Both the position numbers and the translations under genes were made by a program. DNA of 64,000 bases, taken from Sipunculus nudus (lineage: Eukaryota > Annelida > Sipuncula > Golfingiida > Sipunculidae). Positions 2,132 to 52,434 of the stretch are shown here, piece by piece. Below the pieces are notes generated by a model. It did not search any database, was not told the origin of the DNA, and saw only the letters and a list, made by a program, of their open reading frames with translations. Within the stretch, counting starts at the first letter, position 1. Each line of letters begins with the position of its first letter. The stretch lies in NCBI GenBank assembly GCA_026874595.1, contig CM049306.1:73779642-73843641 (forward strand). Direction: 5' to 3'.

Positions 2132-2196
2132 CTTCATCAGCCTCTTCAGAATGCTCTTGTCTTTAGATAAACTTGGCTTGTACCTGGTGTACACAC
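2132..2196 (-). CDS. DENND6: DENND6 coding exon 15 (last one seen in window)
   Basis: 65 nt between acacag and gttagt. It completes Gly and reads [19 protein letters not shown] then MK, matching vertebrate [20 protein letters not shown]. It ends in phase 0, so the window holds exactly 396 codons. I found no further exon between 1 and 2131. Confidence 0.93.
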
Positions 2197-5100
2197 CTGT
2201 GTAAAATATGCATAAATAACTTTATGGAAATTTCATTAACATCAACATTTATAAAAATTCCTCTCTCACAAGAACTTATCATTTACAACCTCTTTATGTC
2301 ATATATACCACAATATATAGATAAGGTACCAAGGAAATTCTTAGGCTGCTTATGGGATTTTGAGATTGCAGGAGAAACTGTTTTAGTATATGAACATGCA
2401 AGGATACTAAAAAAAAATACAGATGAACAGATCCTGATTGGAGTTACAGTATCAGTTGTGTATTCTTTCTCTTACATCCTTTCCTTGAGTCATCCACAAT
2501 ATACATACTGCAATATTTAATTATGGTTTAATTAACTGTTAACAGATTAAGTGAATAAAATGTATAATGCTCTTCAAGGATCTTGTAATTATTGTACATA
2601 AGTTGTTGCTTACCTGGTTTTGAGTCCAAAGTCTTTAAATTTCCACCTTTTTTTATTTTATTAAACTTTGCTGCAGCTGGAATAATAAAATTAAAGTGTC
2701 ATGAAAAACATAAAAAATTATAATCTTAGGCACATGAAAAATGCAACTCATTATTATGACATTTAGCATAGGGAAAACCACACAAAATATAGAGGAGTGC
2801 TTCACTTGCCACACCTTATTAACAATATCTATTGATATATGTTTTAATGGTAAGGCCTCACACACAATAGTTGATACCTAGTACTTATAATTTATCAATA
2901 CAGAAGAAAATGATAAAAAAAAAATAACAGAGCTTTTTAGGATATTTCCTGAACCACTCTTAAAACCAATTAAGTATGGTCAAAGGTGAATTAAATGAAA
3001 CTAATATAAAGTTACATATGCTGTCAGCCAGAATTAATTTAATTTCAGGCAATAAAAATATAAAGGGATGGATCTTAGGCACGGCCCGCATCAGTTTATA
3101 CCTCCTCATCAATTTTTTTTTTATTCTGATTTTCGATAGAAACTTAAAAACTTTGAGCTCCAGCCACTGGGACATGTATTTCTTTCAAGAAGATAAAATA
3201 ATACAATTATTATCAAGCCTTTCCTTAATCCCTCGACATTTTTATAGAAATGTACAAAAAAAATTGAAAATAAAAAACCGCCCGCCTGCACTGATTTCTG
3301 AAAAAAAAAGTGCCTGAGAACCAAACCTTAATTTTTTGGCCTTAGATTTGACTGCATTTAACACTAGTAGACATAGGTCTCTCAAGAGAATCAAGTGTTT
3401 TTGTGGGAGATTTATAAGGATCAGTATATTGTACAGCACCATGTCTTGACATTGTAAATGAATTGTGCACTCTGATCCATGGCGGTTGTCCTGAACACCA
3501 TAATACCACAGAATACTGCCAAAAGGCTTGAGATATTATCAAAATACTCTATAATTAAAGAACATTGAGGCTTATATGGCGCAAGCGGTAAAAGAAAGCA
3601 CCAATCTGTAAGGTGTTTACAAGTACTCTAATAATGATTTAAAAATGCGATTTTGCCCTTCCCTCTATTTAAAATGTTTAATTATTGGCTTAAAAGTATC
3701 ATATAAGCTTCGATGGTCCTTAATTATAGGATATACTTTGACAATAATTTTATTCTATAGGTGGTATTTTGGGGTATTCTGCAGTATTCCAGTGTTTAAG
3801 ATGACCCTTCCATGGTGCTGGCAGATCTGGTCCATTAGAAAAGCATTGTCATCAAATAAATAATTCATGTTCCTAGCAAACTAAATAAGCAGACACCATT
3901 CAAGTGCTTGAATTGACAGTAATCATGCATTGGATAATGGATAAATATGACTGATTTAATTGGTTATAAATACTGATTAAATTCTTATTCAAGCAGTAAC
4001 AACTTCAATTAATTTCTGTATTCATTATGTAGCAGATTCATTGTAGTAATATTGTCTGCATCATACTTTCAGTCTAGCCTCCTCTTGTATTGGTTTTCAT
4101 AACTGTGTAAAATTAAAAATATGTTTAATCTGATAATCATTCCCCCCGAAAGGGTATAGTTAGTTTATGAGTAAGAAAGATTTTACTCTATGATTTTCAC
4201 AAAGACAGAATTTAGGTTGGTAAGCAACATGTTACAACAACAAGTTATTTTATGACTGTTCTAACTATATTGAAGTCATATATGAGTACCAATTATTAAT
4301 TTTCAGTTTTTATACATGATACATGTTAATAGAATCATCCAATGACTTTGATATCATTACTGTGACTGATACTACTTATGCTTCATAATCACTGGAATAT
4401 CTATGAAACTATTAGGCATTTTGTGGTTGGCCTGTTTTATTTTTGAGGGTTTCAAATTTGCTGTATTCAAGCGAGGGAAATAATGATGAAAATAAAACCT
4501 ATGTAAACTAGAAAATAGGCAGTGGACAAGCGACTACATGTATCCACCAAATCACAGAGGTAAGGGTGTAGTAAGGCATTGGATGTTCCTGACATGACAT
4601 GACTCCAAATTTGTGGCATCAGTGATGCAAATCAAACTCATATATTTGTGCAGTTTAAACCAAGATGGATGAACATGCCAAATTTCAGACAAAAATACTG
4701 AACCACTCCTGTGATATAAGCAAATTTCACCCAAAGCAAATGGACAAATGGATGCCACGCAAGAATGACTACAGATGACACCACCAGTCTTAAGTACAAG
4801 ATGGAGGTACCTAAAATCTATGGACATGCCAAATTTCAGACCAATACATTGAACTACTCCTGAGATAAGATAAATTTTCACCTAAAGCAAACGCATAGAT
4901 GGACGCCACACAAAAATGATAACAGGTGGCACCACCAGTCTTGTGTACAAGATGGAGGTATCCAAGATCTATGGACATTCACAATTTCAGCCTTATAGAC
5001 TGAACCAATCATTAAGTTGAATAAATGGCAAACACATGGATGGACACTATGTAAAAATGATTATAGGTGGCACCACCATTCTCCAGTAAGAGATCCAAGA

Positions 5101-8100: not shown

Positions 8101-11100
8101 TAATATGATCAAAAGGAATTAAAAGATGGTTGCCTGGTGGCCATATAGGACTTCTGACAAGTCTGAAATCAGACAACAAACATTCTCTAAATCGGACCAA
8201 ACATTAAAGAAAAAATTACTGAAACTGCCCTGAAGAAAGAATTTCTTAGGTGGCTAACTGGCAGACATAATGGATTTCTGACAAGTATGACATTTGATAT
8301 CCCACATTCTCCAATAAGAGACCAAACTTGGGGCAAATTATCCAGTAATAAATGCCCAAAATAATTCAAAAGGCATGTCCAGGCCCTCATATCAGATTTA
8401 TAGATATGCAATTGTAAAAAGTGTAAGTCCAATATTTTTTATTATCACTCTGCTTTTCAATGGGGTCAGCAGGGTAGGTAAACTGCCAAACCTGAAAGAA
8501 AAGAAATGCAGAAAGCATGACTAAGAGTCTTGAAATAAAACAAAAAACCATCCTAAATCAAGGTACACATCCACATATTATGAGAACAAACACTTGCTTT
8601 TATATGTGGTGATATATATTAAATATTCAGATGTCTAGGAAACTAAGTTTATTGCTAGGATTCCATAAAATAAACTGCAAAATGTTCCCATCATCTTATA
8701 AATCAGTAACTAAACTTTAATACTATACTCTCATAGTCTTAATGCCTGGCTGAAGCATTCTGACAACAGTGTTTTTGTTATGAAGTAACGAGGTACTTAT
8801 CACTGAGCCTTATCACTTAATAGGCTGATACAAAAGGGAGTCATATGTCACCAGTGTCACTCACAATTACAGCCACACAGGGAGATGTACCAGCTGGAGT
8901 GGGATGGTTATATATACAAGAAAAATAGAGATGGTCTATAAATTAAGTAATTGTGAACATCCCTGACCTATGACCTTGGCCTTTTGCCCATATATCAACT
9001 GGATTCTTTCTAAATTATGGGTATCTACTGACCACTTAAATCTGGTGTAATTACTTTGCAACCAATGGGTGAATAACTTTGACCTGCAACCTTTAACCTG
9101 CTGACCAGCTGACCCCAAAATCAATAAGTTATTTATTATCAAGCAAAAATACCCATAAATATGAAGTTTGAGTCAAACTGAGTGATGCATAGATGTGGCA
9201 TATGTGAAAGACTGAAGGTTTGGGTTGAACAGTTACACTTGAAATATGTTCACAAGCATTTAGAACAATTAAATATTGTGACCTTGACCTTTGACTTTTT
9301 GACCTCAACATCAATAGGCTTCTTCCCATATTGGTAGGTAAGCCATATATGACAGATGGAAGGTACAGATTGAAAAGTTTGCCTGAAAATGACTCCACTC
9401 AAGAAGTGGGTGCTGTGACCTTGACCTTTGACCTCAAAATCAACAGGTCTTTTCCCCTGTTGGCAGAGAAGCGATATCAGTGCTGGAAGGTTTGGAATGA
9501 AAAGTCTAGCTTGAAATGTGTTCACTACCTTTTCAAAGAAGTGGATCCTGTGACCCTGACCTTTGACCTTGTGACCTCGAAATCTATAGGATTCTTCTCC
9601 AACTTAGTAGGTGAGCTATATGTGAAAGATCAAAGAATTGGGATGAAAGGGTTGGCTTAAAATGCATCCACAGGCTTTTCAAAGAAGAGGCTCCTGTGAC
9701 CTTGACCTTTGACCTTTTGACCTAAAAAAATTATGGTTCTTCCCCTGTTGGTAGGTGAGCTGTATGTGAAAGATGGAAGGTTTGGGATGAAAATTTTGTC
9801 TCAAAGAGTTATTTCTGGGGGGTGCAAACACACCCCATAACTTCGAGAATATAGGTCGCAGTGACCTAATTTCAGGTTTGCAAGGAGATCTTTTTATAAT
9901 CTCTAAGACTGCATAGGGTTCATAGCCCTAGCCCCTACGGTTACGATTTGTGCCCTGCTAACGGACGGACGGCCGGCCAGACGGAAGGACGCCGGACAAA
10001 GACCCATCGCTATAGCCCAGCATGACTGAAAGTCAGATGAGCTAAAAATGGATTTTAACTTCTAAAGAAATAACTGAATCAGGAATAAAATTGAAGGTAG
10101 AGAATCAATTAATTAAATAGATTCAAAGGCCCCTCATAATTCACAGGCCTAGTTTCTAAACTTATGTTTCAGGCTTCAAGACAACACACCACATACATTA
10201 TAAAATCACTTGAACAAAATCTAGTTGCCCATATGCAAGTATTATACAAAACCAAAACGAAAAATGTTTTATTTACAAATGTCCAATGCTTCTATTGGAC
10301 TGGTTATGACGGTTTTTATTTCCTTTCATCATGGAGTATTTGAAGAAAACTTGAATGAAACTGGTTCATGGCAATATTTTGACAAAGTATTTGCTTCAAG
10401 TACACTGTCCATAAAAATACTGGGACACCTCGATACATCTGGGAATATATTCTCCTAGCTTGTTCTTAAACATGAAAGAATGAGCAACGGAATCCCAATA
10501 GGCAGCCCACTACCAGCAATTGAATATACAAAAGATTTTAAAATATAATTTATAACCTGCAATATAATGAATATGACAAATATATTCAATTTGCACCATG
10601 CTTTAGCACACTATGCATTCACAGCCAGACTACACTGTTATAATGCATTCACAAGTCTCTACAGCATATGGACATACACAAGATGCTCACACAAACTTAA
10701 TTGTATATAACAAACTTACCTTCTAAAAATTCTCCTATCCTTATTATATGTGGCCATGATTGCAGGGTCTTTGCAAAGAAAGGATTGGTGACACCCAGTA
10801 TCACAGGTGGTCTGTAAACAAATTGGTAAATATATTGTTATCAATGAGGTTGAGGTTCCACAATACAATAGTGAAGTTGATGAATTTAATAAATACACAA
10901 GAAACACTCTGTATTTAAAAATATTAATTAGCAAACAATTCTTGTTTGAGAGGATTGTTTCTATTCTAAGATTACACCAACTTTTCATTAAAATGGAAAT
11001 AAGTAAAACTTGTTCAATTTTTAATTTGATAAAAATCCTGAATTTTTATAAATATTCCTGATATCACAGCAAGTAATAAAAATTTTCATTCTATATCATT

Positions 11101-14100
11101 TACACATCAAAATGTTCCAATGTATGAATCAGTTCATCTTTAGACAAATACTGATAGAATTATTTAATTTTAGATTAATTAATTTAGATTAATTTTAGGC
11201 ACACATTACTGTTTATACTTACGGCCCATTTGACCTTGCAGTGTATTCCTTAAATTCACTATCATGTATTGTGAAGTATGGCCTGTAGTCTAAACAGAAC
11301 TTCAGTGGCCAAATGATGCTGAAAAGATAGAACTTGATGATACCAATGGTTAACACTAAGTAAAGTCTATAGTGAGACACCTTTATTAGACACTACATGG
11401 AATAAAAGTTATCATTAAATATTGTCAATATCAATTCATATAAATCCAAAACAAACTAATTATATGTATAACCTGTAGACAAAAATGTCAAATACAATCA
11501 TAATTGATTTATTTATTAAATCTCCACCACTCAAGCCCAAAACAGACTAACGCGGGCGTCACGCGCGCGTCAAGTGTCACGTGTGCGCCACGCGACAAAT
11601 TCAAAACACACTAACGCGGCTACAACGCGCACGACACGCGTCAGATTGGAAGGTATAAACCAAGGATCTATTATATTTTTTTGTTTTGTCTATCTTTGTA
11701 AAAACAGTAATTTTGATAATCAGCGTTGGATTACTTGTATACAAATATATATCTTTTGTGACCTGTTCTAAATATGACAGAACTCAGTCATTATTCTGAA
11801 CGATATTTATATATTTGTGTTGCTTTGTTTCATGTTTTCTATCCAGATACAAATCAATAATTATAGTTCAGTGAATAATAACAAATGTTTCACCAGCAGT
11901 TTTATATAGAATTTGAGTGCTGGGGAGGAAAACCTCTATTTAGTTATGTCATTATCGGGAATCCCCGAGTGGGTAGCGTGCGTCATGCGTCAAAAATCAC
12001 TCCAGGAGCGATAGCTGACGCTTGACGCGCGCGAGACGCACGCGTTAGTCTGTTTTGTCATTGATAAATAGAGTGGAATGATTTTTCCAGATTTGACGCT
12101 TGACGCGTGACACTTGACGCGGGCGTCACGCGCGCGTTAATGTGTTTTGGGCTTTAACCACATGGGTCTTGATAAGACCAAGCTTTATCAACTCTATGAA
12201 GTTGCAAAATAAAAGTCTGAAGGTGTAATATTCAAAGAATATTATTATATTAAAGAGCATTATTCATGTAAATGTCTTTTTTTATCCTCTTGATCTCGTT
12301 ATCATTGTTTTAATTCCCTATCCAGCTATAACTTATATATTTATTAGTCATTTCTTTTCTTTTTTTTTATTTCTTAACTTTTGGTTGGAGGTAACCACCT
12401 CCATTTTTTAATGCTAGCTTAACTTAATAAGTGCATCTGCAGAATTGCATTCTGGTTTCAGACTACATGTCAGGGCAGTCGCACATGCTTCTTCTCATTT
12501 TAAATCCTGGTGTTAACCAGGCCTGGTCACTACAGCACCTGTAAGCCCTAGGTGTGTAAGCTTCCTCATTTGCTGGGTCATACCATCTAGGAACCCCTGA
12601 AAAGGTGCACTTATTGGTGAGTGAAACAGAGCCATACCCCATGGTCTTCCCATTAATCCTGCACAGCGCTCAGCCTGGGTGGGGGCCAACCATGAATAAT
12701 CAAACTCAGAATCTCCCGTTTTAATCCTCTACACTACACCTGTTCCTGTTAAATGTTGTGTATGAATTGCACAATGTACTCTTAACAGCAATGTCTTATT
12801 TACAGCACTTTTGTATGAGCTGCAAATAAGGTAAGAGCACTTTATAAATCTGGCATAATAATTTACATGTAATAATAATAATATTAATGAGAAATGTAAT
12901 ACTACCTGACTAGAGCCTGGACTGTGTTGGCACAAATTGTGGGAAGGGGAGCCATTACTACCAAAGGCTGAAAACATCAGACATGTGAAGCATTTATCAA
13001 AACATAGATTACATATTTTCAATGTTATTCCCTTGTACATTTAATACTATTTACATACACATGTGTAATGCAGAAATACAATTAAACATAGTATAATATG
13101 ATGTGGAGGATAAACTGGTATGCATAAATCACTTAATATCACACTGTCGGAAGAAAGTAATTTTATTTTTAAAAATAAAAATATTTTAACTATACCCCTT
13201 TTAAAGTCAGAAAATATACAGAACTGATCATCAGATTATAAATCAGTAAAAAGTGCAAATTCTCCATCCCAGTACTATATACAGTATTGAACTAAAATTT
13301 TTAAAACAAAATTTTAAACAAAATTATCTCAAATGATATTCCTGTACTGTATTAATAAGGTTGAATATTGTACATTATTTTCTTATAATTATGAAGTAAA
13401 ACTTATATACAATATGAAACTAAAAACAAATAAGTACAAAAGATATTCTCTTGAGTGTAAGATTGACAAGATATATTGTACATGATTACCTTATCATCAT
13501 GAAGTAAAACTTACCTCTCCTGTTATTACTAATTCCCATAACATTTGTATATGTGGCAAAACAGGTTGAAAGGCACTGAAACAAAAGCAAAAGGTACATT
13601 TCAGTGTTTCAATGGTATACTTGATATTCCACTTAAAATTCCACAATAACAGCACCTAGACATTAGTGTGCATTTAATCACCTTCTAGGGCTTGACATCA
13701 ATGATGAACAGCTTGCCCATGACAAATTAATGTTCCAGAAAAGGATGGAAGCCCGAAGGGCAACCAAAAGTGGGCTCCCACTTGAGTTGGGCAATTGGGT
13801 CAAACAAAGGCCTGATATTGACCTCATCTTAAGTTAACCCTTTTCTTTCTAGGAGAAATGAAAATATATTGTTATACACTTATCTTAAATTACCTGTATG
13901 TTTATCTGAAGAGAAATTTTATTAAAGGTCTACCCTCTAGCATATATCACTTGCAACACGCTAAAGGTATGGGAGAAAATCATATCTGAGAGTACCATTG
14001 ATATAAATGTTACATCCAGGGCGAAATAAAACTTGATCAACAATTGGTGTTGTGTCCTACATGGCCAGCGAATGTGTATCTCAGACACAACAAAACACAT

Positions 14101-17100
14101 CATTGCACACGTCACAGAAATCCCGAGATCTTGATCTAACCGCATACTAACGCACTTGAAAATGAAGAAATAGCAGGTTGAAACGGCAACATATCCGAAC
14201 AAAGCAGCTAATCAGATTGCCACACCCTGTTCCATATTAACGTTTAGGAGGCATAATGTCGACCATTATTTCAGATACTTGGTTTACTAGATTATATAAA
14301 CAATATAAGATGAAATATAATGAATGTTATGGGTACAACTGATTCCTGATTGAACTAGAGAGTTGGCCTTTAACAAACAAACAAACATTTGAACATGTTT
14401 ATTGTGGTTAAATAATGATGTGGAACACAGTTTTTGTGTTTGTGGTTGTCATCACTGATTTTTGTGGGACAAGTCAAATTCATGTAGGGCAAGTAAAAAG
14501 GCCAGATGTTACTTGCCTTTAGGTCAAGTACTTTCAAAAGTTAATATTGAGCAATGCCTTCATGACTTCAAATTTACATTCATAAAAAAGTAATAAAATA
14601 AACTGTGCATGACAATTACCAACTATCAGTCTTATTTCTGCTTGTGCCAATATTACTTTTCCTTATCTGCCAACAACTGTATCCAATATTTATTTAGCTG
14701 ATAAGTTTCAGGATCTATTATCCTCATATTAAATATGTGTATCAGCACAAAATGTGTCATGTCACCTGAATATATCCACTTCATGTACTGAGGGCAGTAT
14801 ACAGTTAGCTGGCATGATAGGCTGAAATAAACAAGGAAACGGATGAAATATGTATGTTAACTCGTCATCATATATAACAATGACAATGACAGAAGTCTAA
14901 AGCATACAAAGTGATGATGCATTAAACATTATAAACAGCTGACATGTACTCAGTGCCATGCCCAAACTGAACAGATCAATAACTTAAAACAATATTTTTA
15001 ACGTTCCACCTTTATTTTGGTTTGAAAAGGCCATGGTTAACTTCATGACCACCATGTTGTTAATCATGTCTCATTGGAGATAAGTTTTAATTTAAACATT
15101 TATTCAACCAACTCCCGCTTCTCATGATGAGTGTATTTTTCTGTACATATGGAGAATGTCTACAGAAAATTTCACAAAACATATTGCAATTAAATTCTCA
15201 AACCATAAATCCACAGCACTATTATGCCTTTATTCTGTAATGTAGTTGCTGTACAGGTTTGTCCACTATAACAGTGGAAGTGGATAATTGGCATGTCTGA
15301 ATTTTCGTGCTTTATTCATTTTACAGCATTAGCGCAGTTTGAATTTTCGCACAAATCAGCATGTTTAGTTGATTTATTTTTAATCAAATTTTTACAATAT
15401 TTAAAGGAATATATAAAAGATAGGTTTGCAGCGCAACCTTCTCCCCCCTAACAAGCCCTGGTTGACAGCATTTATGGTACGGGCGGCTGAGTACTGTGAC
15501 CGCAAGGTGTAGAAAATACGTAATTAACCGGGACTAATCCTGTTAATCCTGAGTATGTTGTAGAATTGTTAAACAACAACTGTGATCATTAAGTAGAAGC
15601 AGCCCGGTATATGTGAACAACAAATAGAGCTGACAACAGTCATGACTGGTTCTCCGTCATACCAGTAGGGGGGAAGGGGGGTCTTCAGTTATCTAGGTTG
15701 CATGAAATAATGCGTGTTCTTAATTCAACACAAATCTAGCTCCTGTGTATATCCTTGAAATTAAAACCCTACTAACATATTAGTAACAAAACCACTTACA
15801 CAGTATATTATGCACTATCCATTCTTATACATGTATTTATTATTATCAGACTTTATCAGCTAACCCATGGATCTTATGAAAATCAATTATGCTACATTTT
15901 GATGCAATTATCAACATTAGAAATTATAAATCCCTTTTTTCATCTGAACATGCACATGACTTATCCAAAACATGAACATCATCAAAAAATCAACTATAAT
16001 TTTTTCATGAATCTACATTTTTTAATGAATTATAAGATATTAGTTACGTACTTCTGGGAATTTCTCTTTCCATGGCTTCATCAAATTGTGTACTTAATAC
16101 AAGTATTATGACAGACTGTGTACATAATGAAATGTCTCAGTGTTAAGAATTCATGAACCTTATACCAGGGTTAATTTCTGTAATAAGCCAAAATAATGAA
16201 TGACCCCCTGAAAATGAAAATTTATTTTGGGGGATAATTTTGAAAATTTTTCCTTTTAGTCTCTACAGATCTTATGACAACATAACAAAATCATAACAGC
16301 CAGACTCCAGGAACATTTTGTTGGAGAAAACCTGTAAAGCTCCTGCTACTCTTTCTAAATGATAGGTCATATTCTCTCCCACTTTGTTCGACCATGATGA
16401 CATTACGGCAAGTTTATAGTAGCCATGTTCCCATTGCCAGCAAAATGAATACCAGCCCAGTAATATCCATCCTGGCTTTATGCATATTGGGCAGGCAGGT
16501 GTGCTGTCAGTCTAAACAAAATGTAACAACTGGTATCTGTTTTGCTGGCAACAGGAACATGGCTATTATAAAATAGTCTCAATGTCATAATAGGTCGATG
16601 AAGTGGGAACATAGAGGGAGCCTAAATATGACCTATTATTTACCATGAGTAAGCTCCTGCATGTCACAGTAATTTAGGCATAGGGTAGGTGTTTAGAGCA
16701 TAGTAACCTAAACTACAACCAATCAAGCTCAGCTGACAGACCCCAATTTTTTCAAGCAGTGATGATAGAAATGACAAAAATAACAGAATGTTTTAACCAA
16801 ATAAACAGAGACAGATATCCATTTGTATTAAATGCAGATAATGGCAATAATAGCAGAAAATGATTATGAAAAGAATTTATGAAAAGCAAAACTTTTAAGC
16901 TCTGAGCTATAGTTATTAGCTGTATAAGCTTTCTGCATTACATCGTTGCTTATTCATGTGGATGTAAAAAGTATCATTATGAAACAAAAACTCTCAATGG
17001 GCAGTATAACCAAAAAGATAATTTCCCCTTAACTGCACAGTGCACACTCAGGAAAACTTCATATGATACTGTGAACTAAAAGCTGTCAGAAAAATTCAAT

Positions 17101-21165: not shown

Positions 21166-21249
<84 letters not shown>

Positions 21250-24200
21250 ATTATCATTATATATATACATACACCAGTATATATGGTATTGTGTAAAAAT
21301 ATGAGTGTAAACCATTTGTCAGACTTCAGAGATACATGGGATTCATAAAAAAACTGAATTCTGATTCATGAAAAGTGCTTGGATAATTTAGAACTCCCTT
21401 TCAGACTAAATGTAATTTAATAAGAAAAATCAAATATAAAATGGACAAAAAGTCTCAGAATAATCAGGAAATGGCTGTTATAACAATTTTTTTGTTTTGT
21501 GATGGTTTTAAGAAACTAATGCATATTCCATAAATATTACCACTGTTATATTGTTAACATACATTATGATTTATGCATTATTAAATGTTCAACCTTCTAC
21601 CAAAATTAAATCTAAGTCTTGAACCACAAACATTCCCAGCTAGATTAAAGTCTACCTACCATGCTAAGGGCTACCACTAATCCAGAAACTGTACAGTATT
21701 TCAGCCAAGGGAAAATGCAGACCTTAGAAACTGATATGAAGTTATTCAATCATACCTTAAATAGCCACAAACACAGACAGTACAAAGATGAACTTACCAC
21801 TGCTGAGTTTTTGGGTTGTGCTGCCCCTATTAGTCTATCTGACCTACAAGGTATCCTGGCCTGAAAAAAAAGTAAAAAAAAAAAATGAGGTTGAACACGA
21901 GCATGTTAACAGTTACACATCAATTCTATATCAACAATGTAAATAGTGCTTATTAAGGGATCCATACAGAAGAGAGATAAGATTACTAATGTCTGACAAG
22001 AATAATTAAATTAGTACAATTTTTCAAAATGGAAAAAATCCCATATCAATCTATACTGCTGCAGAAAACATTGAAAATAAAACTTGGACTGTATGTAAAG
22101 AATTTTAAAGCTAGAAAATGTGGATTATCTATTGGGAAAAATATATCATATGAGACATACTCTCTCAAATTGGCAAACATACAAGCAATGTAGTTAGTGC
22201 CACTGCTGACATCTAGTGGCAGCAAGAAGAACAAATTACAATGTAAATTGTGTTTACCTGTATGACTGTGCCCATCAGAGGCAAATTGAGCGTTTCTCCT
22301 GGCACTGCTGCTGGCCACTGGTCAACATCATGGCAAGCTGGAGTACACATAAAAACATATAGGAAAGGTTCACCTAAAAACATTGGAAAGGTACAAATAA
22401 AAACATAGGAAAGGTACACATGAAAACATAGGAAAAGTACACATAAAAACATAGGAAGTATACCTGTCACTCAAATGATATCAACATGGAAAATAATGCT
22501 AATGCCATAATATACATTAGCCATTTCCTTGTGTGGATCATCTAAGCAATGACTCTTACCACCTGATCTGTTTATGTAAAATGGGACAGCTGCTGTATTT
22601 TCTGTATTAATTTATGCCAAAAATGGCAAACTTTAAATATGCAAAAGAGGGGAAATTCTATGCAACAGTTATTTGGCATTATGTACCAAATAACTGAAAT
22701 TAAACTACAGACATTTGCTTGAAGAAAGATGATCTTTCAAAACAATTTTTTGGATATTTCTATTCATTGCTCTGATTTCAGAGAAATTATAAACTTTTTA
22801 GTCCTCTGTTTTCCATTTCAGATAAAAACAAGGCCTACAGGCCTAATGTGAACCTGTGCATTGGGAAATACACCAGGTATAATGCTTCAATGCTGGACCA
22901 TTACTTCTCATGTATATGAACAATGCAGGTACTAAACATTTTGATTAAGAAAAAATTACACAAACATCACTGCTGAAATTCTGGCATGGGTGCACACAAC
23001 ACAACTAGGGACCCACGGGTCTCAACGCTCAGCTGAATTTGTCGATAAGGATATTTTTAAAGAAATTTTTCAGAATGACAGTCCTGTGACCTTAACCAAT
23101 GACCTTGTGACCAAAAAATCTTAGAACTTAATATCCTTGAACTTGCAGCATTAGGATTATTGTATCAATCTTTTAAAAAGTGACCTTGACCTCTGACCAG
23201 ATAACCTCAAATTCTACAGGTTTCCTCACTTTAGGCAAGTAAGCCATGTGTGAACGTTGGAAAGTTCAGGATGAAAAGTTTGATTTACAGTGCATCCACA
23301 ATCTTTTTAAAGATGTGGCTCCTGTGACCTTCAACTTAGATCGCTGGACCATGGTAATCAAAATGAATTTACTTATGTGGTTGGTCATTATTAAATCAAG
23401 TTTGAAGCCAGTTTATTTTTAGAAATAAATAGAAAAATATTCGTTAAAATAGAGAAAATACAGGTGGCGCCACCACGTTTCAGGAACTGGTAAAACTAGT
23501 CATGGTAAATATTCAAGGCAAGATTCATGACAAACCATGCATTAATTATCAAGATATTGGAGGTTTTGTATCAAATTTCTTACTATTCTGGGGGGTACTT
23601 TCAAGCCCTGTAGGTCAAAGGATATAGGTCGCAGTGACCTTATTTCAGGTTTCCAAGGAGATTTTTTATTGACCTCCCTGGATTATCACTTAGAAATTTC
23701 TAGGACCAGCTGTTACGATTTGTGCCCTGCTAACAGACGGCTGGATATCAGTATGAACGACGGACAAAGCGCCATTCCTACACCTCAGCTGACTTACAGT
23801 CAGCTGAGTAAGTCAGCTGAGCTAAAAATGATTGTAGCTGGCACCACCAGTCTTGTATACAACGAAGCTATCAGAGATATAGACATATGCCCAAGTTCAG
23901 ACTGATATATCAAACCCCTCCTGAGAAAAAAGCAGGGACACACACTGTGCAAAAATTAATGTAGGTGGCACCACCAGTCTTGTATACGACAAGCTATTCA
24001 ATAGGTATAAATATGCCCAATTTCAGGATGATATATCAAATTCCTCTATGGAAATAAGCAGGCACAAAAGTCACACACTGTGCAAAAGTCATTGTAGGTG
24101 GTGACACCTGTCTTGTGAATGAGAAACCCATCAAAGACGCATAGACAGGTTAAAATATTAGGCCAATACATCAAATTTACCTTAAGTCTGATGCACGGGG

Positions 24201-30200: not shown

Positions 30201-33200
30201 CATATATCGCAACACTTAAACCCTGGCAAACAAAAATGCAACTACAGCATTAATACTGAACCTGACGTTTCAGAGAACATTTATAAGTACTTAAACAATC
30301 ATTCTGATAATATGGGACTGTCCACCTTGTATTAGTAATGGGCTGATGCTTGATTATAACAGATCATCAGGCCGCTGATGGAAAAAAATCTGATCATTGC
30401 AGAGCCAAAATTAGTTACAAAGTTTGCACAAAACTTATGCTATCTAATGAGGAATAATTTGTATGCATTCATTTCATTCATGCAAGCAAACTCTAGAAAT
30501 GTCTGTGTTTACTAATAACTTCATACCTTAAGATACTAAACGCAAATATCTTCTACAGAATTAATATATATATGAACTAGATGTGTCGGTACGACACGAA
30601 TGCCTCTGCCTGGGGCAAATTAGAAACATTTGTAAAATTTTGAAAATTTTTTTCAAGTTCAGGAGGTGTCGTATGGTCAAAAGTAGGTCAACAAGGGCAA
30701 AATGCAAACTCGATCTGTAACGGGTCATTATCAAGCAACACACCAAAAATCATGCCAGTATATGGAGGCATTGTGAGAAAAAGTCCATGTGCATTTTCCA
30801 TAAAAATTTCTGTCTTTCATGAAATTTTCTATGTTTAGGAGCCGTAAAACAATCAAAAGTAGGTCAACCGGGACGAAACACAAACTCGATCTGTAACTGT
30901 CATTATCTGCCCACACATTAAAAAATCAGGGTGGTATGTGCAGGTATTGAGGAAAAAAAGTCAGTACATATGCATTTGTTATGAAAATTTCCATTTTTCA
31001 TGAAACTTTCTATGTTCAGGAGCAGTCAAATGGTCCAAAGTAGGTCAACTGGGACAAAACAAGAACTCGATCTGTAACTGGTCATTATCTGCCCACACAC
31101 CAAAAATCAGGCCAATATCTGCAGGTATTGCGAAGAAAAGTCTGTACAAGTGTATTTGTCATGAAAATTTATATTTTACATGAAATTTTCTATGTTCAGG
31201 AGCCATAAAACAGTCAAAAGTAGGTAAACCGGGACGAAACGCGAACTCAATCTGTAACTGTTCAATATCTGCCCACACACCAAAAATCAGGCCAATATCT
31301 GCAGGCATTGCGAAAAAAAGTCTGTACATGTGTATATGTCATGAAATTTCATATTTTTCATGAAATTTTCTAAGTTTAGGAGCCGTAAAACAGTGAAAAG
31401 TAGGTCAACTGGGACAAAACGCGAACTCGATCTGTAACTGGTCATTATCTGCCTACACACTAAAAATCAGGCCAATATCTGCAGGCACTGCGAAAACAAG
31501 TCCATACATGTGTATTTGTCATGAAAATTTCTATTTTTCATGAAATTTTCTAAGTTTAGGAGCCGTAAAACAGTCAAAACTAGGTCAACCGGGACTAAAC
31601 GCGAACTCGATCTGTAACTGGTCTATATCTGCCCACACACCAAAAATCAGGCCAATATCTGCAGGCATTGCGAAAAAAAGTCCGTACAACTGTTCGATTT
31701 CGGAAGGACAGGTCTATTTGCAGTGAGGAATGTCTTCCTCCTAAATAGCTGATTAATTCTGATTATCAGCTGGCTGAGGTCAATTGATTTTTACCAATTT
31801 CCTATCATGAAATTACAACCAATGCCAAGCAATACCTTGCATGTTTGTTCAAACTTTAGAAAGACAGTTCAGTACTGGCAAAGATACAGAATGACCCACA
31901 GAGCTGTGATGTAGTGGACAGGTAGCAAAAAGCATATGTTAGCTTTAAATCAAACAAGACATGACAGTTTCATATTGAGGAAATTTATTGGCCATTCTAA
32001 ACCCCAACAAAGCCAATGCACTCTCAGAGTTTAGGGCACTTTTGCACTGCAAATTATCATAAAGGAAATACCACATTCAACTCTCAATAATGTCTGTATA
32101 AGTTTTATGAAAAACAGTAGCCCCCACCTAACACCATGCATGAAGCTTTTTCAAATTTCATGACACCTAGAGTGGTCATCTGATATATTTAAAAACATAA
32201 ATTTAAACTGAAATTAATTAAACTATTTAGGAGATATATTGTAAAACAATAGGAGTATGTTTCCATCTACTGACCTGAATTGGAGTCGGGAAATGACAGG
32301 TAACAAATATTTGATTTCTGAAAAAAAAGTGATAACATATACAAGACTCAACACAATTCCTGTTCAACATTGATACTACCATTATATTTGAACTGGTACA
32401 TGACCAAAGAAAATTACAAATTACTTTTTGTGGAGATGTTTTGTTCACCTCTAGAAAAAAGACATGATAAAAAATCTGCACATACTACTTAAATTTTCTC
32501 TCAATTCTTAACTTTTCTCTATGTTCTATTGCCAAGATATTCACTAAAATTACCGATATAAAACAGTTTTTAGCAATCATGAAATATATTCTATGTTTAT
32601 CTGCAATCACTCTGATCACAATAAAATATATTTGAGGCTAAGGAATGGATTCATATTTTGATCACCTTTTCTGCATTTTTACACACAAGTTATAAAGCAA
32701 ACAAGGGATAGATTCCTCCAAACTGTTTTTGTACAATGATTTATAATGATTTCATTTCACAAGCAGTTGAAGAATTAACTGCCTGAAACAATAACAGTAA
32801 TTACAAAAATGCACATACCTCTTTTTCACTAAGTTTGATGTGAGCAGGGTAAACAGTCTGAAACAAAACCAAATTATTGATAATTATTTTGGATTAATTT
32901 TGAACCAGTTTGTACTTATATAACATATAAAATGTGGACCCAGATAGATGAGTGTTAAAACACTTGGCTTTCTCTGCTGGTGACCTGATTTCAATCTCAT
33001 GGGTGGCTATGAGAGTGGGTTGTAATGGCCTGTCCAAGATTGGTGGTTTTCTCCCTGTTTCTCCAGTTTCCTCCACCCCTATACAACGCCAAAATTTAAG
33101 CCATGGAGAATGCCTCATATTATTTATATAAAAAGCTGTATAATCCATGAAACTAAATAAAGTTTATATTTAATATAACATGAAAAAAACTGTATTTCTG

Positions 33201-42101: not shown

Positions 42102-42603
42102 CTTGCCACTACTATAGCCTCAATCATAAACATTTATTTTCATTAAAAATTCGAGAAGAATCTTGAATGATCACAGTTACATATTAATTTTGCTACGTAG
42201 TAAAGCCAAACATTTTCAAGCTAATTCACGAATGTTTAAATATGAAGTTTGAGATTACAATATCGCATGTCCGAAAACGAGGCTAGTCAACAAATCGGAA
42301 AATGGCTCTTTGACTGAGACAGGGAAGGAAGGGTTATATCTCGGCTTTCAGTAGGCTGGCGGTAAGTACATTCACAGGCATTTGAAGCTAATTCAAGACA
42401 GGAAAACACTGTTCTTATCAGATATTGTGCATGCGGATAATATTTCATCATATGTCATGCCGTCCTGTACTGGGCCGACTGTCATTTCCTCCACGGAAGT
42501 TTGTGAACTTGAGTCAAGATGGCGCTGCGCTGTTCCGGCCGAAGATTAATTTGTTCTAATAATTTGCCCTTGCAAATTCATTACATGGTTGTTCCACATG
42601 TAG
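42102..42603. promoter_or_regulatory. Putative bidirectional promoter upstream of DENND6
   Basis: More GC/CpG-rich than its surroundings. On the minus side the DENND6 start codon lies in a YY1-like AAGATGGC. On the plus side there is an ETS-like CACGGAAGT (about 42492-42500) followed by CAAGATGGCGCTGCG (42515-42529), again a YY1-like element of the kind found just downstream of start sites. Two consensus donors face right: GCG|gtaagta at 42361/42362 and TAG|gtgagc at 42603/42604. No TATA box stands out. Confidence 0.5.
42519..42603 (+). other. Candidate plus-strand first exon (unknown product or SLMAP leader)
   Basis: An open frame from an ATG in a strong context (AAGATGG) reads MALRCSGRRLICSNNLPLQI then HYMVVPHV and meets a donor TAG|gtgagc after 28 codons plus one base. 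The peptide is Arg-rich with no acidic residues, as in a mitochondrial presequence, but matches nothing I recognise. Spliced to the acceptor at 52051/52052 it would hit a stop quickly, so it could equally be a non-coding leader exon of SLMAP or of a divergent non-coding RNA. No certain downstream exon was found. Confidence 0.35.
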
Positions 42604-42933
42604 GTGAGCATTTGTAAAAGAGGCTGATTCTTTGGACACGCCACATAGGTACATTTGCAGATGAACTGACGTTTATACCACCAGAAATTTGACAGCGTGC
42701 GCACCGGCTCACGGCTGATGTCCGGTTGTCATTTTTGACAAGTGTGGATTATGCCTCATGAGCAATGCATACATCTGTCAAATTTGCTGCCCTTAATGCT
42801 GTCCAGAACCTAGTATTCATGAACTGAATTGAAACAGAGATCAGTTTGTGTGAATTTTATCTTGACAGAGTCGAATTATTTCAGGAATACACTGTGCCCA
42901 GCCCAATGTATATAATTTCAGTGCAGTGTACTA

Positions 42934-45900
42934 TAGGGTTGGGACGATATGAGTTTTTCATATCATGATAAAAATATAAAACTTATCGCGATATATCGTG
43001 ATATCGTAATATCAGTACTTGTATTTCTTTTTGTGGTACTAAGCAAGACAATTGAAAAAAAATACTGAATATAAAAAGTAAACAAGCTCTGAATAATCTT
43101 AATTACATGAAAGATCCAGCTCTCATAAAACATACAAAATAAGCTTATCAAATAAAAATGAAAAATAAGGTAACCGTATCACAAGTAAAAAAATCATTCT
43201 TGCTTGTTGGATTACCTTGGTGCATCTTACATCATACATCATAGTGATCACTGATCAATGATCATACAGCAATCCTCAAGATTCAGTGAGGACTCATGAA
43301 TTACCACTAATCACTTTGTCAGAACCTTATATCATAGCCTCAATCATTAAAGATTAAGTGATGATAAATTTTTAGCCAGAAAAATCATCATATTAGCATT
43401 ATGTTGTAATAGTCTGTTTCTTGCTGGAGTGATAATCTGTCCACAACCACTGAACAGACGCTCGGAAGGCACACTTGTAGCTGGGATGCACAAGTATTTT
43501 CTAGCAAGTGCAGCGAGAAGTGGGTATGTATCTGTATTTTGTTTTCACCAAAGAAGTGGATCTTCATCCGTGTCGATTGTATTGCTTTCCAAATATCTGG
43601 CCATCTGGACTTCTGCTGATGATACGACTGCTGATTCATCTTGACTGTTAGTCTTATATTTCAGAGACATTGATCGAAGAACTGCAGATAGGCCACTTTG
43701 TTGTTTTGATTTCTTAGCTGGGGAGGCCTCTGTTTGTTCCGCAGACTCTGGAATCTCAGGCCCCTGACTTTTTGATCCTGAAATAGCTGCAGCTTCTTCA
43801 AGAACAGCATTCTTTGTATCCAGCAACTCACTTTCTTTGGATTCTGAATCACTTACAACAGATTTCTTAAACAAGTGGAAAGGCTTATCCTTAAAGCGAG
43901 GGTCCAAGAAACATGCTTTGTATATTATACTCTTTGGTTCAGGCAAGTCATATCTAGCCTGCAAATCTTTAAGAATGACTGCTTTGACTCTTTTCCCCAG
44001 AGGTTCATCTGTTGTTTTCTCTTCAAGTAGTTCATAGATATGTTGCAGGACTGGAACAACTGTTGACATGTAGATACATAGGAATCCCCACTTAGCATAT
44101 CAGTGAAGTTCACCAATGGAGATAAAACAGACTGAATATTCTCCAGTGTTTTGTAATCCTTGTCACTTGGATTAAGGTGCCACAACTGGCGGTTCTCAAG
44201 GAAGACTGCACATATGGCCTGTTGCTGTTCCAAAAATCTATCAATCATTTGGCTCTTTGACCCCCATCTTGTGCTGACATCATGAATTAATCTATGTTGG
44301 GGAAGTTCAAGCTGAACTTGCTTCTCACGAAGGTCCCTTTGACGCTTCCAGCTTCTGGCAAAAGCTTCAACAGCTTTTCTGCAGATTCTTACTGCACGTT
44401 CAACAACTTGATCATTAGTCCCTTTTGTAATTGCTAGGTCAAGGTTATGACCAAAGCAACTGAGCCTGGGAAGCTCCATGTCATGAAATGCTTTCACATT
44501 GTTTGATGCACTGTCAGTAGTTGCTGCTACTATCTTATTAGTTTTCAAGTCCCAGTCACTTAAAATGCTTGCCAAGGCAGTCACAATATTCTCAGCTGTA
44601 TGGTCTTTCATCATGGGAAACGCACCAAGGCACACATTATGCAATGTCCAGTTGCTGTCCACAAAATGAATAGTGAGACCCATATATGCTTCCATTGCTT
44701 GGGAAGTCCACATGTCAGTTGTAATGGCGAAATGATCAGCAAGAGCCAAGGTTTCTTTTACTTTGCCAACCACTCTGTCATGAATTTTGGGCACAACATG
44801 ATCCGAAAAGTACTTTCTGGAAGGCAATTTATACCTTGGCTCAAATTGTTTCAACATTTCTCTAAAGCCGTGCTGTTCTACAGTATGTAAAGGTCGCATG
44901 TCTTTGCATATGTATTGCGCTACGGCTTCGTTAAGCTGTGTCGCCCTTTTGGAATCGTTTGGAAATGGCACATATTTCTCAAAAGCCCTGCTTATTTCTG
45001 AAATGCTCTTAGTTTTTGATGAACCAGAAGTGGCATGTTTTACTTTTGTTATTTCCGCGTGTAAATTGGGATGTTTTTCCCTCAAATGTGCAAACATGTT
45101 TGACGTGTTTCCGCCTTTACTGGGCACGCGTTTCATACACTTTCTGCAGGTTGGGTTGTCAGTGTCCTCGTTATCCTTCACAAGTCCGAAATAATTCCAT
45201 ACGATTGACTTACTGTTTGTTTTCTTAATGAGCTGAATATTATCTTGCGCCACACTGGTTGATGGCGTTGCCGGGGCGGGAGTTTGAACCGCGGGAATTC
45301 CTGTAATTGCCGACAGTTGAGGCGTGCACGGACTTTCCGCCATGTTTTCTTTTAAACTTAAAGTCGGAGGAACACGGAAAATTTTCGGAGAGCGTTATTA
45401 ATTTGTAAAGTATCATTATTTTTAAAACACTTGTACCTAAATATTTTTATATGATACTGACTAGTTATTTGTCGATGTCTTCTCATACAATAAATTAATA
45501 AAATTGGGACATGAAATATTACAGTGAATTAGAATAAACTATATGATATGAGAGGTCTGTTCCATCCATAAAGTTTGCTTTGATATATGTGGCTAAACAT
45601 GCAACCCGTTTGTTATAATGGGCCCGGTCGCCCCGGAGACAATTTAACGGTGGTTTTATTGTGACTTAATATCGTCTCATGCATGTGAAAAGGATAAATA
45701 TTAAGTTAACACGGTAACCTTTTTATTATGTTGATTTCTCCGAGAATTCTCCGACGATAAGCATATAATATGTAAATCAGCCTTTCTGAGGGACCTTTTG
45801 ATTCGTCCAAGCGTTTGCAACTTCCCTACATTCCCGACTTATCCCGACCTCATTATACAGGCGGTTCCACATATACAGGAACTTAGAAACCTACGGTTTA

Positions 45901-46126
45901 TATATATAAATATCATTCTGATAAATAGGCTGTACTTTGAACAACAACTGATGAACTTATGGATGTCATTATACCCTAAAATAATTTTCCAATGGATGAT
46001 TTTTCACCAAAACTGTTCACCAAAATACATACCGTGATATCACGATAATAGGGAAGATGAAGGTACGGTTACCGCGGCTGTCATATATCGTGATAATACC
46101 GTATACCGGTAACCGTCCCAACCCTA
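42934..46126 (-). mobile_element. hAT-superfamily DNA transposon with intact ends
   Basis: TIRs are TAGGGTTGGGACG (42934-42946) and its exact complement at 46114-46126, 13 bp perfect. The 8-bp target-site duplication GTGTACTA flanks it exactly (42926-42933 and 46127-46134). Length 3193 bp. Sub-terminal regions at both ends are rich in palindromic TATCGTGATA / ATATCACGATA motifs, as expected for transposase-binding clusters in hATs. It carries one ZBED-type transposase on the minus strand. The perfect duplication argues for a fairly recent insertion, although the gene is broken. Confidence 0.95.
43347..45343 (-). pseudogene. hAT (ZBED-like) transposase, broken by one frameshift and one stop
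   Basis: The start is at 45343. An N-terminal BED zinc finger is visible: W49, C66-x2-C69 and H86-x4-H91. Catalytic-core landmarks follow: ITTDMWTS (D210), ATTDSASNN (D277), CFGHNLDLAI (C296, H299) and STRWGSK (RW at 359-360). Near codon 424 (about 44070-44074) a one-base shift moves the frame; it resumes with STVVPVLQHIYELLEE (from 44069). At 43545-43547 a TGA interrupts the frame right after DEDPLLW, where relatives usually have a second Trp. Reading through, the C-terminal dimerisation region is present (YPLLAALARKYLCIPATS, VPSERLFSGCG) and ends at TAA 43347-43349. About 665 codons in all, normal length for the family. The element is probably non-functional in this copy. Confidence 0.93.
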
Positions 46127-46309
46127 GTGTACTATAGACTACACTCTTTAGTTCGTCCCAAAACCTTGACCTGTTGTCAATGTTTTTTGCAATAATTATC
46201 TTGACAATATTCTTTAAAAAACCTTAAGCCTAAAGTAGATATGCATATATTCTACAAATATCTGGTAAAGTATTATCATGATGTAAACAGTATTTACTTT
46301 GCGACCCTG

Positions 46310-48141: not shown

Positions 48142-48639
48142 AAGGTGTTCGATATTTGCCAGGTTTACTCTATATTTAAGTAATTTGGCTGCTCTTTCAA
48201 ATGTGTCGTCCTGGCAATAAATGGTAACTGAGTACTTATTGGACAATTCATAATAAACCTCCGATCTTTATGAACAACCATCAAATGGCTTTAGAAGATT
48301 ATAGTCTGTTTCGCCAAGGGGTGCCTTTGGCTTTTGGCAATCATTAAGCAATATTAACATTTCTGTATAAAATGTTACAATGGCAGGACATGATGTAGAA
48401 TCTGACAATACAGAATGAAACAATAGATTGAAATTTGTCAGAAGTATACTTTGCAAATTTATGGATGTTTTCTCGTGAAGTGACAGTGTATCATGGTGTA
48501 ATTTAGCTGACAATGTATTTTGTCATATTTATGGTACCCAGTACTCTTATTGTCTAATCAACGTCTGTCAGTTTTAATGTGTCCTTGACCTTGTCACTTC
48601 AGTCAGCATGTTGAAAAAAAATGGACTGTTTTATCTTTA

Positions 48640-50030
48640 GGTGTCCGGAGAACTCCTCCATATCCGCTGGGCGGAATTTTATGAAACCTAGGATTATGTT
48701 CGGGTCACATGTGAACTGCTGCACCCCGATTTTGTTTTGCCCTCTGACCTTTCCTCTCTGCCCAGCGTCCATTTGTGCGTCTATTTCCTGCCATAAAACC
48801 ACATATCTCAGGAACTGTTTGACTGATCAGGATAAAAATTTTGTACAAATGTAGCCCTTGAATAGCTTTATAACATACACAAAAAATTGTGGCGCCACCT
48901 GCAACCATGTTTGCACAGTGTCCATCTGTTTGTCTGCCTTGGGTTAAAATCACTCATAACTCTGCAGTGGTTTGACTAATTCACCTGAATTTTGGCATGC
49001 ATATACATCCTGGATAGCTTTCTTGATTTTATGACAGGTGGCGCCACCTACATTCACGTTCACGCTGCAGACATCCATGCTTATATCTCCGGACTGGTTT
49101 GACGTATCTTCCTGAAAATTTGCATGTGTATAGATCTCACATAACTCTTTACCATACGCAAAACTGGTGGCGCCACCTACAACCATTTTTGCACATCGTC
49201 CGTCTGTTTGTCTGCCGTGGGATGAAATCACTCATACCTCAGTTGAGGTTTCTCATATCTGCCTAAAATTTTGCAGGTTTATACATCCTGAACAGCTTAC
49301 TTGATTTTATGACAGGTGGCGCCACCTACATTCTAGTTTATGCTGCAGACACCCAAGCTCATATCTCAGGTACCGTTTGACCGATTGGGCCAAAATTTTG
49401 AATGTGTATAGATCTCACATAGCTCTTTATCATACACAAAACTGTTAGCCCCACCTGCAACCATTTTTGCACAGCGTCTTTCTGTTTGTCTGCCATGGGA
49501 TAAAATCACTCATAACTCAGCAGTGGTTTGACATATCTGACTAAAATTTTGCAGGTTTATACATCCGGGACAGCTTTCTTGATTTTATGACAGGTGGCTC
49601 CACCTACACTTGAGTTTACACTGCAAACATCCTAGCTCATTTCTCGGGAACCGTATGATCGATTGGGCCAAAAAATTGCATGTGTATAGATCTCATGTAG
49701 CTCTTTACCAAACGCAAAACTGGAGGGGCCACCTGCAACCATTTTTGCACAGTGTCCATCTGTATGTCTGCTGTGGGCTAAAAACACTCATATCTCAGTA
49801 GTGGTTTGACTTATCTGTCTTAAATGTTGCGTGTTTATACATCTTGATTAGCTTTCTCAATTTTTTTTGCCAGGTGGCACCACCTACACATTTTGGCTGC
49901 AGACATCCATGCTCATATGCAACACACCTCACTCTATTTTCCCCTGCCACTCAATCCATGCCTCACTTCACCCGTTCCACTCTGATTTTGGCGGATACAC
50001 ATAGTCCCTTGTAGACTACCCATATTCTAG
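48640..50030 (+). mobile_element. Helitron-like family 1 element, copy d, opposite orientation
   Basis: The left side starts at the conserved TCCGGAGAACTCCTCC block (the terminal GGCGGATACAA is missing). The body carries GGTGGCGCCACCT at about 49039, 49167 and 49317, with variants at 48891, 49445, 49594, 49724 and 49874. It ends with GGCGGATACACATAGTCCCTTGTAGACTACCC (hairpin region 50002-50018) and TTCTAG|T at 50030, giving the Helitron-style hairpin plus CTAG directly on the plus strand. Confidence 0.72.
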
Positions 50031-52041
50031 TTACTATCTTGAAACAGCCTGCTGTGTGTGAACAACAAACAAAGCTGACCACAATCATGGCTGGCTCTCA
50101 GTCTTACTTCAAAGACATTTGCAGGGCTGTTCAAAAGAGCTTCAAAGGCTATTTGTTTGACAGCTGTTTTTAAAAAGTCACTATAAAGCGGAATGGTTTT
50201 TGGCAGAGATATCACTTGCTGCGAAAATCTTATAACAAGCAACATGACTACTCTCACATCCTGGTTGAAGAAGCCTCAATTCAAGCTATCCTGTGAGGAG
50301 AGATTCCCAGACTTGTGTGACTGTTTGATACCAAAATTATGATGCAAACACTAGACTTTCTTAAAAACAGTATTGTTCAATTTCTAAGTGCTCCGTCAAA
50401 CATAAAGGATCTATATGACACGAGATCGTACAAAATCAGTGTTGTTCAATTTTTCTGAGTGCCCCATCAAACATTAACAATCTAAATGACACAAGATAGT
50501 CCATTCAATTCACCATTACTCTTTACTTGTATCTAACAATAGTGTCGTCACCAGATGGTAAAAAAAGTAAACAACATGGACAAGTCTGGGGTGTTGGAAA
50601 TAGTGCATATTTAGCGCAAATCACTTTGCGCGAAAATAAAAACACCATTAACAAAACCAATTCCACAGTATACTATTTCTTTCATGCTTTAACAGTCCAG
50701 TTAGAAGAAGAATGGGACACTTGGCAAATTTTGATGTGCAATTGTGCATCATGTATTACAATGTGTGGAAAATGACCTTATCATTATGCAGGATGTGCAA
50801 TGTACATTTCTGACAACTTTATTCAGTTTGTGAAAAAAAATATGGGGAATTACTGCAAATTTTACTCCTTTATTCACTTTTTCCTTAAGGAAGGTTACTC
50901 TTTTTAACCAGAGCACATTTCTTTTTTGGGGGTCATTTACATTTGGCAGGCCTTTTTAAAGACTCTGCAACTCAGTTGAGATACATAGGTGTACATGCTA
51001 AAATAAAAGTTCAAAATTCAGTGTGCCAGTAAGGATTTAGACCAACCCTCATCACTTGATCAGCAGTCAGATTATACATACTAGTGGTGTGCCCATTAAT
51101 GGGTTATATCAGTGATTGGTTTTCTTTCATTATTGATTAAATTGGTTGCTTAGTTGATCACAATTTACAAATGATTATGTATGCACTTCAAAAGAAGGCA
51201 TATTATCCAGATAGTATTCATATTTTGTTTGGAATATAAGAATGACTGGGCACAAAACAGTGAACAACCATTAAAATTAACCTTGTGCGATGAATAAGTG
51301 GCAACAATCTGGCCATTATCTAGACCTTGCAGCATGATAGACAGGTTATATAGCAAATTTCACTGTGATATAGATGGTACTTTAAATAATCATTTAATAC
51401 TCCATCATCAGTTATTTTTTATCTTTCATTCATCTAATGTGATTTAACAAAGAATTCCTACCATTAATATATACCATGTTGAAGAAAGGTCTACATAGAA
51501 TTAAACTCTAAGTTGCAAATGATTCTCTGTTTTCTCATGAAAAGTGCACTAAAAGCAGCATCAGGAAGTGCTGAAGTTACCTGCAACTGGGGAAGCAGAT
51601 TTAGTGTTTATGACATGACATGTCAGGCAGGTGATCCAATGGAATGGCAACACAGGTAGTTGGAGGCCTGTGATTGGTTGTTTTGTTATGGGGCTTTAGT
51701 TATAACTACAACACTGGAGCAGTTCTTCAGTACAGGCCGGGGTAGTTGTGTGAGAGCAGGAGCTCCACAGAGCCAGGGTATCTTCTGATTGGCAAGTTCA
51801 GCAAAACTTTCACATGTATGTTAGTTATACACAGTGAATGGATCTGTTATATGAGATATTAGGATTCAAAATTAAATTTCTGACATGATTATTATTGGAT
51901 TCAGTGTTGCAGTATTGGTAATCAACTTTGTTTGAAAAATAATTGTTTAAAAAATTTATATTGGTGTATAGGGTGTGAATTTGTGTCACTGTTATTACTG
52001 CTAGTAAATTTATGTCTGTTTTAGTAACATTAAAATTTTGT

Positions 52042-52245
52042 TTCATTTCAGCATGTATGCCGTGACCAGGTGATGCCACACAGTAATAAGGATTACAGGA
52101 AGTTGTGACTGTATACGCCTGAGTGATTGTGCTTTTTCTGCTAGGATCGGGTATTTTTTTATGTATCCTAGAATACTGGGATGAATGGGACCCATGGTAA
52201 CAAGTGGTGCCACGGCGACACAGCTTAGATCACGCCTGACCAGCC
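52042..52245 (+). promoter_or_regulatory. SLMAP 5' untranslated region with 3' splice acceptor
   Basis: TTTTGTTTCATTTCAG at 52036-52051 is a good acceptor, suggesting that the first coding exon of SLMAP runs 52052-52434 and that an upstream non-coding leader exists. The ATG at 52246 has the context CAGCCATGTC. The upstream ATG at 52054 leads to an immediate stop. Confidence 0.5.
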
Positions 52246-52434
52246 ATGTCGGCTCTGGCAGTGTTTACATGCCGCCCTAACTCACACCCGTTTCAGGAGC
52301 GGCATGTGTCTGTTCATGAGCCTGTTAAAATCGGACGCTCTGTCGCAAGAGCGAGGCCTGCACAAAATAATGCCATCTTTGACTGCAAGGTGCTGTCTAG
52401 GAATCATGCATTGCTCTGGTATGAAAACAGCAAA
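52246..52434 (+). CDS. SLMAP: SLMAP (sarcolemma membrane-associated protein), first coding exon, FHA domain start
   Basis: 63 codons in phase 0, ending at AAA|gtaagt, a consensus donor. The frame reads [20 protein letters not shown], then [18 protein letters not shown] and [19 protein letters not shown], nearly identical to the vertebrate SLMAP N-terminus. It carries the FHA phosphopeptide-binding landmarks G30-R31 (human Arg32 equivalent) and S51-R52-N53-H54. In other animals SLMAP is a tail-anchored coiled-coil protein that recruits the STRIPAK phosphatase complex to phosphorylated MST1/2 (Hippo pathway). The next expected segment (FYLQDTKSSNGTF-like) was not found up to 64000, so the following intron exceeds 11.5 kb. 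Confidence 0.95.

Follow-up and report, generated by a model that had tools for sequence, protein, structure and literature searches.

The window analysed here is a 64,000-nucleotide stretch of Sipunculus nudus DNA (assembly GCA_026874595.1, contig CM049306.1), and it contains the 5' portions of two protein-coding genes that lie head to head. DENND6, which encodes a Rab exchange factor, is read on the minus strand from a start codon at 42101. The second gene, SLMAP, is read on the plus strand from 52246, with its first coding exon ending at 52434. Its protein serves STRIPAK as an adaptor and has a coiled coil and a C-terminal membrane anchor. The strands and coordinates on which the preliminary description had based a divergent pair were thus confirmed. 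The features of the locus are listed in Table 1.

Table 1. Genes and other features mapped in the window. Positions count from the first letter of the window.
Feature	Positions	Strand	Description and evidence
DENND6 exon 1	41931..42101	-	57 codons, ATG at 42101; tblastn E=5.3e-10; donor GTAAAT
DENND6 exon 2	32819..32857	-	13 codons; splice-aware scan score 41, runner-up 3
DENND6 exon 3	32275..32317	-	bait match, flank reading, phase
DENND6 exon 4	29398..29507	-	bait match, flank reading, phase
DENND6 exon 5	28523..28603	-	bait match, flank reading, phase
DENND6 exon 6	26583..26688	-	bait match, flank reading, phase
DENND6 exon 7	22258..22337	-	bait match, flank reading, phase
DENND6 exon 8 (tentative)	21798..21860	-	splice-aware scan; phase agrees
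DENND6 exon 9	14766..14821	-	tblastn E=0.095; flank reading, phase
DENND6 exon 10	13515..13575	-	bait match, flank reading, phase
DENND6 exon 11	12906..12967	-	tblastn E=0.072; flank reading, phase
DENND6 exon 12	11223..11318	-	tblastn E=9.2e-10; flank reading, phase
DENND6 exon 13	10720..10811	-	tblastn E=2.4e-10; flank reading, phase
DENND6 exon 14	2614..2676	-	bait match, flank reading, phase
DENND6 exon 15, last visible	2132..2196	-	bait match, flank reading, phase; gene runs past left edge
CpG-rich stretch at DENND6 5' end	41951..43250		600-bp windows up to o/e 0.93; last 317 bp inside hAT
Gap between start codons	42102..52245		10,144 bp; Pfam scan revealed no host gene
hAT transposon	42934..46126	-	3,193 bp; perfect terminal inverted repeats of 13 bp; 8-bp target duplications
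Dispersed satellite-like repeat in gap	48638..50033		~278-bp period; recurs in introns
SLMAP coding exon 1	52246..52434	+	63 codons, N-terminal portion of FHA domain; donor GTAAGT

Fifteen coding exons of DENND6 were placed on the minus strand, from 42101 down to 2132. The gene is truncated at the left edge of the window: its last visible exon ends at 2132 but the gene goes on, and the unseen C-terminal part amounts to about 190 codons with respect to the human length. When the window was searched by tblastn with a human DENND6A bait sequence, 14 matches were obtained at E<1, of which 13 were collinear on the minus strand and 11 had E<0.01. The remaining match, at 44221-44099 (E=0.63), lies inside the hAT transposon. 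Twenty shuffles of the DENND6 and SLMAP probes gave nothing at E<0.01, the best value being 0.092.

The flanks of the DENND6 matches were read, and a splice-aware scan was then used to find two missing small exons. Exon borders were placed at GT and AG sites, so the 15 GT donors and 14 internal AG acceptors of the model arise partly by construction. The same applies to the lengths of exons 2 and 8, which were forced to a multiple of three. The phases of the remaining exons agree with one another, and the joined exons form a single open frame of 396 codons. Exon 1 holds another in-frame ATG at 42014. Exon 8 is tentative: with a DENND6B-like bait it ranked first with a score of 8 (the next different start scored −1), and with the DENND6A bait it ranked second with a score of 4, against 6 for a stretch of satellite repeat.

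In the Pfam search, the DENND6 protein of the window matched Avl9, a family of the DENN type, with 28.7 bits (cut-off 22); its matches to DENN (17.3 bits, cut-off 23.4) and SPA (17.5 bits, cut-off 22) were both below threshold. A phmmer search against the PDB returned no relative, only one chance match to PsbX (E=0.47). Similarity to the baits was collinear across the DENN module. The protein was 59.2% identical to the human DENND6A bait (444 bits, 375-column alignment) and 57.6% identical to the DENND6B bait (456 bits), the two human baits being 57.55% identical to each other; the placement of the gene within the DENN family depends on these bait sequences. Identity at this level would point to an invertebrate. 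Since the window protein is about equally distant from both, it looks like the product of a single gene that predates the vertebrate duplications and is co-orthologous to vertebrate DENND6A and DENND6B. The label DENND6 in the preliminary description fits this near-equal identity, and DENND6A would be too narrow a name.

SLMAP is known in the window from its first coding exon alone. Residues 2-61 of the 63 encoded there matched human SLMAP in the PDB (6ar0, E=5.9e-32), the sole match at E<=0.001, and tblastn with an SLMAP probe detected the exon at E=2.5e-29. The Pfam FHA match fell just under the cut-off (E=0.0012, 19.7 bits against 20.7), the domain being partial. An FHA domain of the SLMAP type is therefore found at the N-terminus encoded by 52246-52434, and on sequence similarity the exon looks like part of an SLMAP orthologue. 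The N-terminal probe detected no later SLMAP exon at E<1 in 52435-64000. As no further exon is seen up to 64000, intron 1 of SLMAP is probably longer than 11.5 kb.

The preliminary description had also stated that no other recognised host gene lies between the two. To the extent that a Pfam scan can tell, none was detected. The gap scan took 44 overlapping ORFs of at least 60 amino acids, less the two containing the exons, and all 42 that remained were compared with Pfam (two of them trimmed to the first ATG, with a loss of 17 and 10 codons). A Pfam cut-off was exceeded in two cases, each of them a piece of transposon. The scan is low in power: exon lengths in DENND6 run from 13 to 57 codons, and even the SLMAP exon stays under the FHA cut-off, so a gene built of short exons, or one lacking any Pfam domain, might escape it. 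The 78-aa minus-strand ORF at 47729-47962 matched DUF6873 with E=0.00084 and 19.2 bits, the cut-off being 27, and this was taken as noise. So were sub-cut-off matches to DUF6476, DUF4661, N4_RNAP_helical, HRG, DUF2905 and DUF4922 among the ORFs of the gap and the larger ORFs outside it. No Pfam family reached its cut-off in ten of the larger ORFs outside the gap, and neither RNA families at gathering score nor tRNA genes were found in the window (0 of each).

The transposon in the gap belongs to the hAT type. Its ends are intact and flanked by exact 8-bp target duplications (42926-42933 and 46127-46134). Two 13-bp perfect inverted pairs were present in this part of the gap, and only the hAT pair had identical 8-bp flanks. 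Its transposase is split across several reading frames; a zf-BED domain was found in the ORF at 43928-45343 (E=1.1e-9) and a Dimer_Tnp_hAT dimerisation domain in that at 43350-43544 (E=3.3e-17), both above the Pfam cut-off. Subtracting the element together with one copy of the target leaves a gap of 6,943 bp.

Repeats recurring in the window cover 19% of the gap. Dispersed tandem arrays with a period of about 273-278 bp were observed at 19570-20952, 27080-28210, 48638-50033 and 56842-58311, in introns as well as in the gap and in both orientations, and the array at 38306-39112 is perhaps related to them. This repeat contains the GGTGGCGCCACC palindrome. Another tandem array, with a 180-bp period and 5.6 copies, is located at 30676-31688 between exons 3 and 4 of DENND6.

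An observed/expected CpG ratio of 0.35 is low for an invertebrate and more vertebrate-like. This is the value for the whole window (TpG 1.35, CpA 1.31), and the depletion is alike in introns and gap, which suggests dense methylation over the whole region. At the 5' end of DENND6, positions 42101-42700 ranked at the 94.6th percentile for CpG among 600-bp windows. The signal at the start of SLMAP was weaker: 51850-52449 reached the 88th percentile, and the 600 bp upstream of the start codon (51646-52245) the 57th. A CpG-rich stretch is an unspecific sign here, as 6 of the 7 in the window lie away from the two gene starts. The pattern at the two starts is at most suggestive of separate promoters for DENND6 and SLMAP.

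Another of the seven, 44651-46550, spans the end of the hAT element that encodes the N-terminus and about 420 bp past the element. The other five are located at 11001-12600, 25851-26800, 31051-31800, 57451-58750 and 59301-61200, where the highest o/e of a 600-bp window is 1.71, 0.94, 0.89, 0.92 and 1.11, respectively, and some of them overlie repeats. These further stretches are perhaps young transposons or unmethylated elements.

In human, DENND6A and SLMAP presumably stand in the same divergent arrangement. The pair was spotted through its resemblance to human, which makes it a mildly after-the-fact choice, and the comparison consists of this window and vertebrate data, the latter being two tables from papers and background on the human locus. 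In cattle, a tabulated insertion lies in intron 1 of SLMAP, and bta-mir-2370 and DENND6A stand in what we read as its columns of flanking genes (PMC4914850). On flycatcher chromosome 12, a list ordered by position runs PDE12, ARF4, DENND6A, SLMAP; it holds genes in differentiation peaks, and genes outside the peaks would be missing from it (PMC5714495). A human 3p14.3 gene list of 2009 gives ARF4, then SLMAP and FLNB, without DENND6A (PMC2686725). No relative was found in searches of viral contigs with both proteins and of genome contigs with the SLMAP exon, in collections that are prokaryotic, viral, phage, plasmid or E. coli.

If a genome of about 20,000 genes is shuffled, we calculate a probability of about 2.5e-5 that the divergent 5' neighbour of DENND6 is SLMAP. 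For a pair to recur by chance with unchanged orientation in at least 2 species, a randomisation across 64 species has given about 0.002-0.01 (PMC2871058). Because chance adjacency is this improbable, the linkage was likely inherited from a common ancestor with vertebrates. The ancient linkage that the preliminary description had proposed is likely: the pair is divergent here, adjacent in cattle and consecutive in flycatcher, which amounts to two sampled lineages, with the vertebrate orientation presumed.

We consider it probable that an old neighbourhood, made up of a co-orthologue DENND6 and an SLMAP orthologue with promoters of their own, was inherited and passively retained. The divergent pair would have come down from the common ancestor with vertebrates. 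Passive retention, with an inferred promoter for each gene, appears most likely as the reason for its persistence, and no rearrangement break between DENND6 and SLMAP would have become fixed in the sampled lineages. Prior to the hAT insertion the start codons would have lain about 6.9 kb apart. Each protein would do the job known for it, one as a Rab exchange factor and the other as a STRIPAK adaptor. Among animal gene pairs, conservation is highest where the gap is of the order of 10,000 bp, and the mean gap of divergent animal pairs is 34,912 bp (PMC2871058). The gap of 10,144 bp is therefore ordinary for a conserved pair, and it fits passive retention and selection alike.

Selection could act through long-range regulation: if the gap or the introns of either gene held enhancers of the other, as in a regulatory block with a bystander gene, breaks would be selected against. 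The long introns, of which the window shows about 40 kb in DENND6 and over 11.5 kb in intron 1 of SLMAP, would offer room for enhancers, but neither gene is known as a developmental regulator in the usual sense. Regulatory blocks of this kind have been described for conserved animal pairs (PMC5429095, PMC8851819); however, the literature searches returned no discussion of the DENND6-SLMAP pair in the portions of papers they covered, and we judge long-range regulation to be unlikely. In the same portions, papers naming both genes do so in lists or tables and draw no functional link between them.

In a broader form of the idea, regulatory constraint would have maintained the ancient pair from the bilaterian ancestor onwards, through enhancers in the gap or introns that serve both genes; after the vertebrate genome duplications, one copy of the neighbourhood would have stayed intact and the other would have been broken up. 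The broken-up copy would be that of DENND6B, which presumably lies apart today. This appears doubtful to us.

That the two genes were joined independently here and in vertebrates might seem conceivable, as just two lineages are compared and the vertebrate side consists of two tables and background on the human locus, but given the estimates of about 2.5e-5 under full shuffling and 0.002-0.01 by randomisation (PMC2871058) we regard it as very improbable.

The preliminary description had suggested that the pair is possibly held by shared regulation between a Rab GEF and a STRIPAK adaptor. This finds no support here: the starts are 10,144 bp apart, a 3.2-kb transposon lies between them, and the 5' regions share short matches only. 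In a comparison of 41800-43000 at DENND6 with 51000-52250 at SLMAP, the best of these had E=0.072. A shared bidirectional promoter would suit the divergent orientation, and among divergent gene pairs of animals a functional relationship is commoner where conservation is strong than where it is poor (PMC2871058). However, the working limit for such promoters is 1,000 bp between starts, with named exceptions above 1 kb (PMC2871058), and the distance found here exceeds it even without the hAT element (6,943 bp), measured from start codons and not from transcription starts. The CpG-rich stretch at DENND6 also stops short of SLMAP, whose upstream 600 bp are unexceptional in CpG. As to co-expression, a milk cholesterol trait in bovine data is negatively correlated with the expression of each of the two genes (r −0.717 and −0.679), but this is common to many other genes in the same passage (PMC6125589). 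A shared promoter or co-expression of the two genes is thus very improbable as the explanation.

With passive retention of an inherited pair as the preferred reading, DENND6-SLMAP resembles the conserved ancestral microsyntenic pairs of Irimia et al. 2012 (via PMC5429095 and PMC5722932), in which two unrelated adjacent genes keep the same arrangement in distant animals. It differs from them in that it is seen in one window and vertebrates rather than in several phyla, and in that no regulatory element has been identified. The pair may already be in the 2012 list, 80 pairs of which were reported in a sponge, with 60 of these confirmed (PMC5429095). The name SLMAP does not occur in the main text of PMC5429095, PMC8851819 or PMC2871058. 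The head-to-head arrangement is shared with divergent pairs that have bidirectional promoters, with the difference of 10,144 bp against less than 1,000 bp (PMC2871058). The PDI-RhoGDI pairs are alike as a conserved housekeeping-type pair for which a functional link was proposed; in that system there are three paralogous pairs with common predicted enhancers and a claimed functional interaction, whereas here there is one pair and the genes alone (PMC5722932). Microsynteny does not imply universal coregulation (PMC5722932).

Neighbourhoods of this sort are numerous. For the bilaterian ancestor, 256 new blocks of at least 3 genes were inferred, against 45, 48 or 56 in shuffled genomes, and vertebrates lost 84% of the 256 (PMC8851819). 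In the human genome 5,855 divergent gene pairs have been counted (PMC2871058). DENND6-SLMAP would add no more than a single case of ancient microsynteny to the hundreds of comparable neighbourhoods, and the view of either gene is unchanged by it. If the pair recurs across phyla, it would serve as an extra marker for gene order in ancestral animals. The two genes kept together would then be ones of cell biology with no evident part in development, and such a case would make it easier to tell passive retention and regulatory constraint apart.
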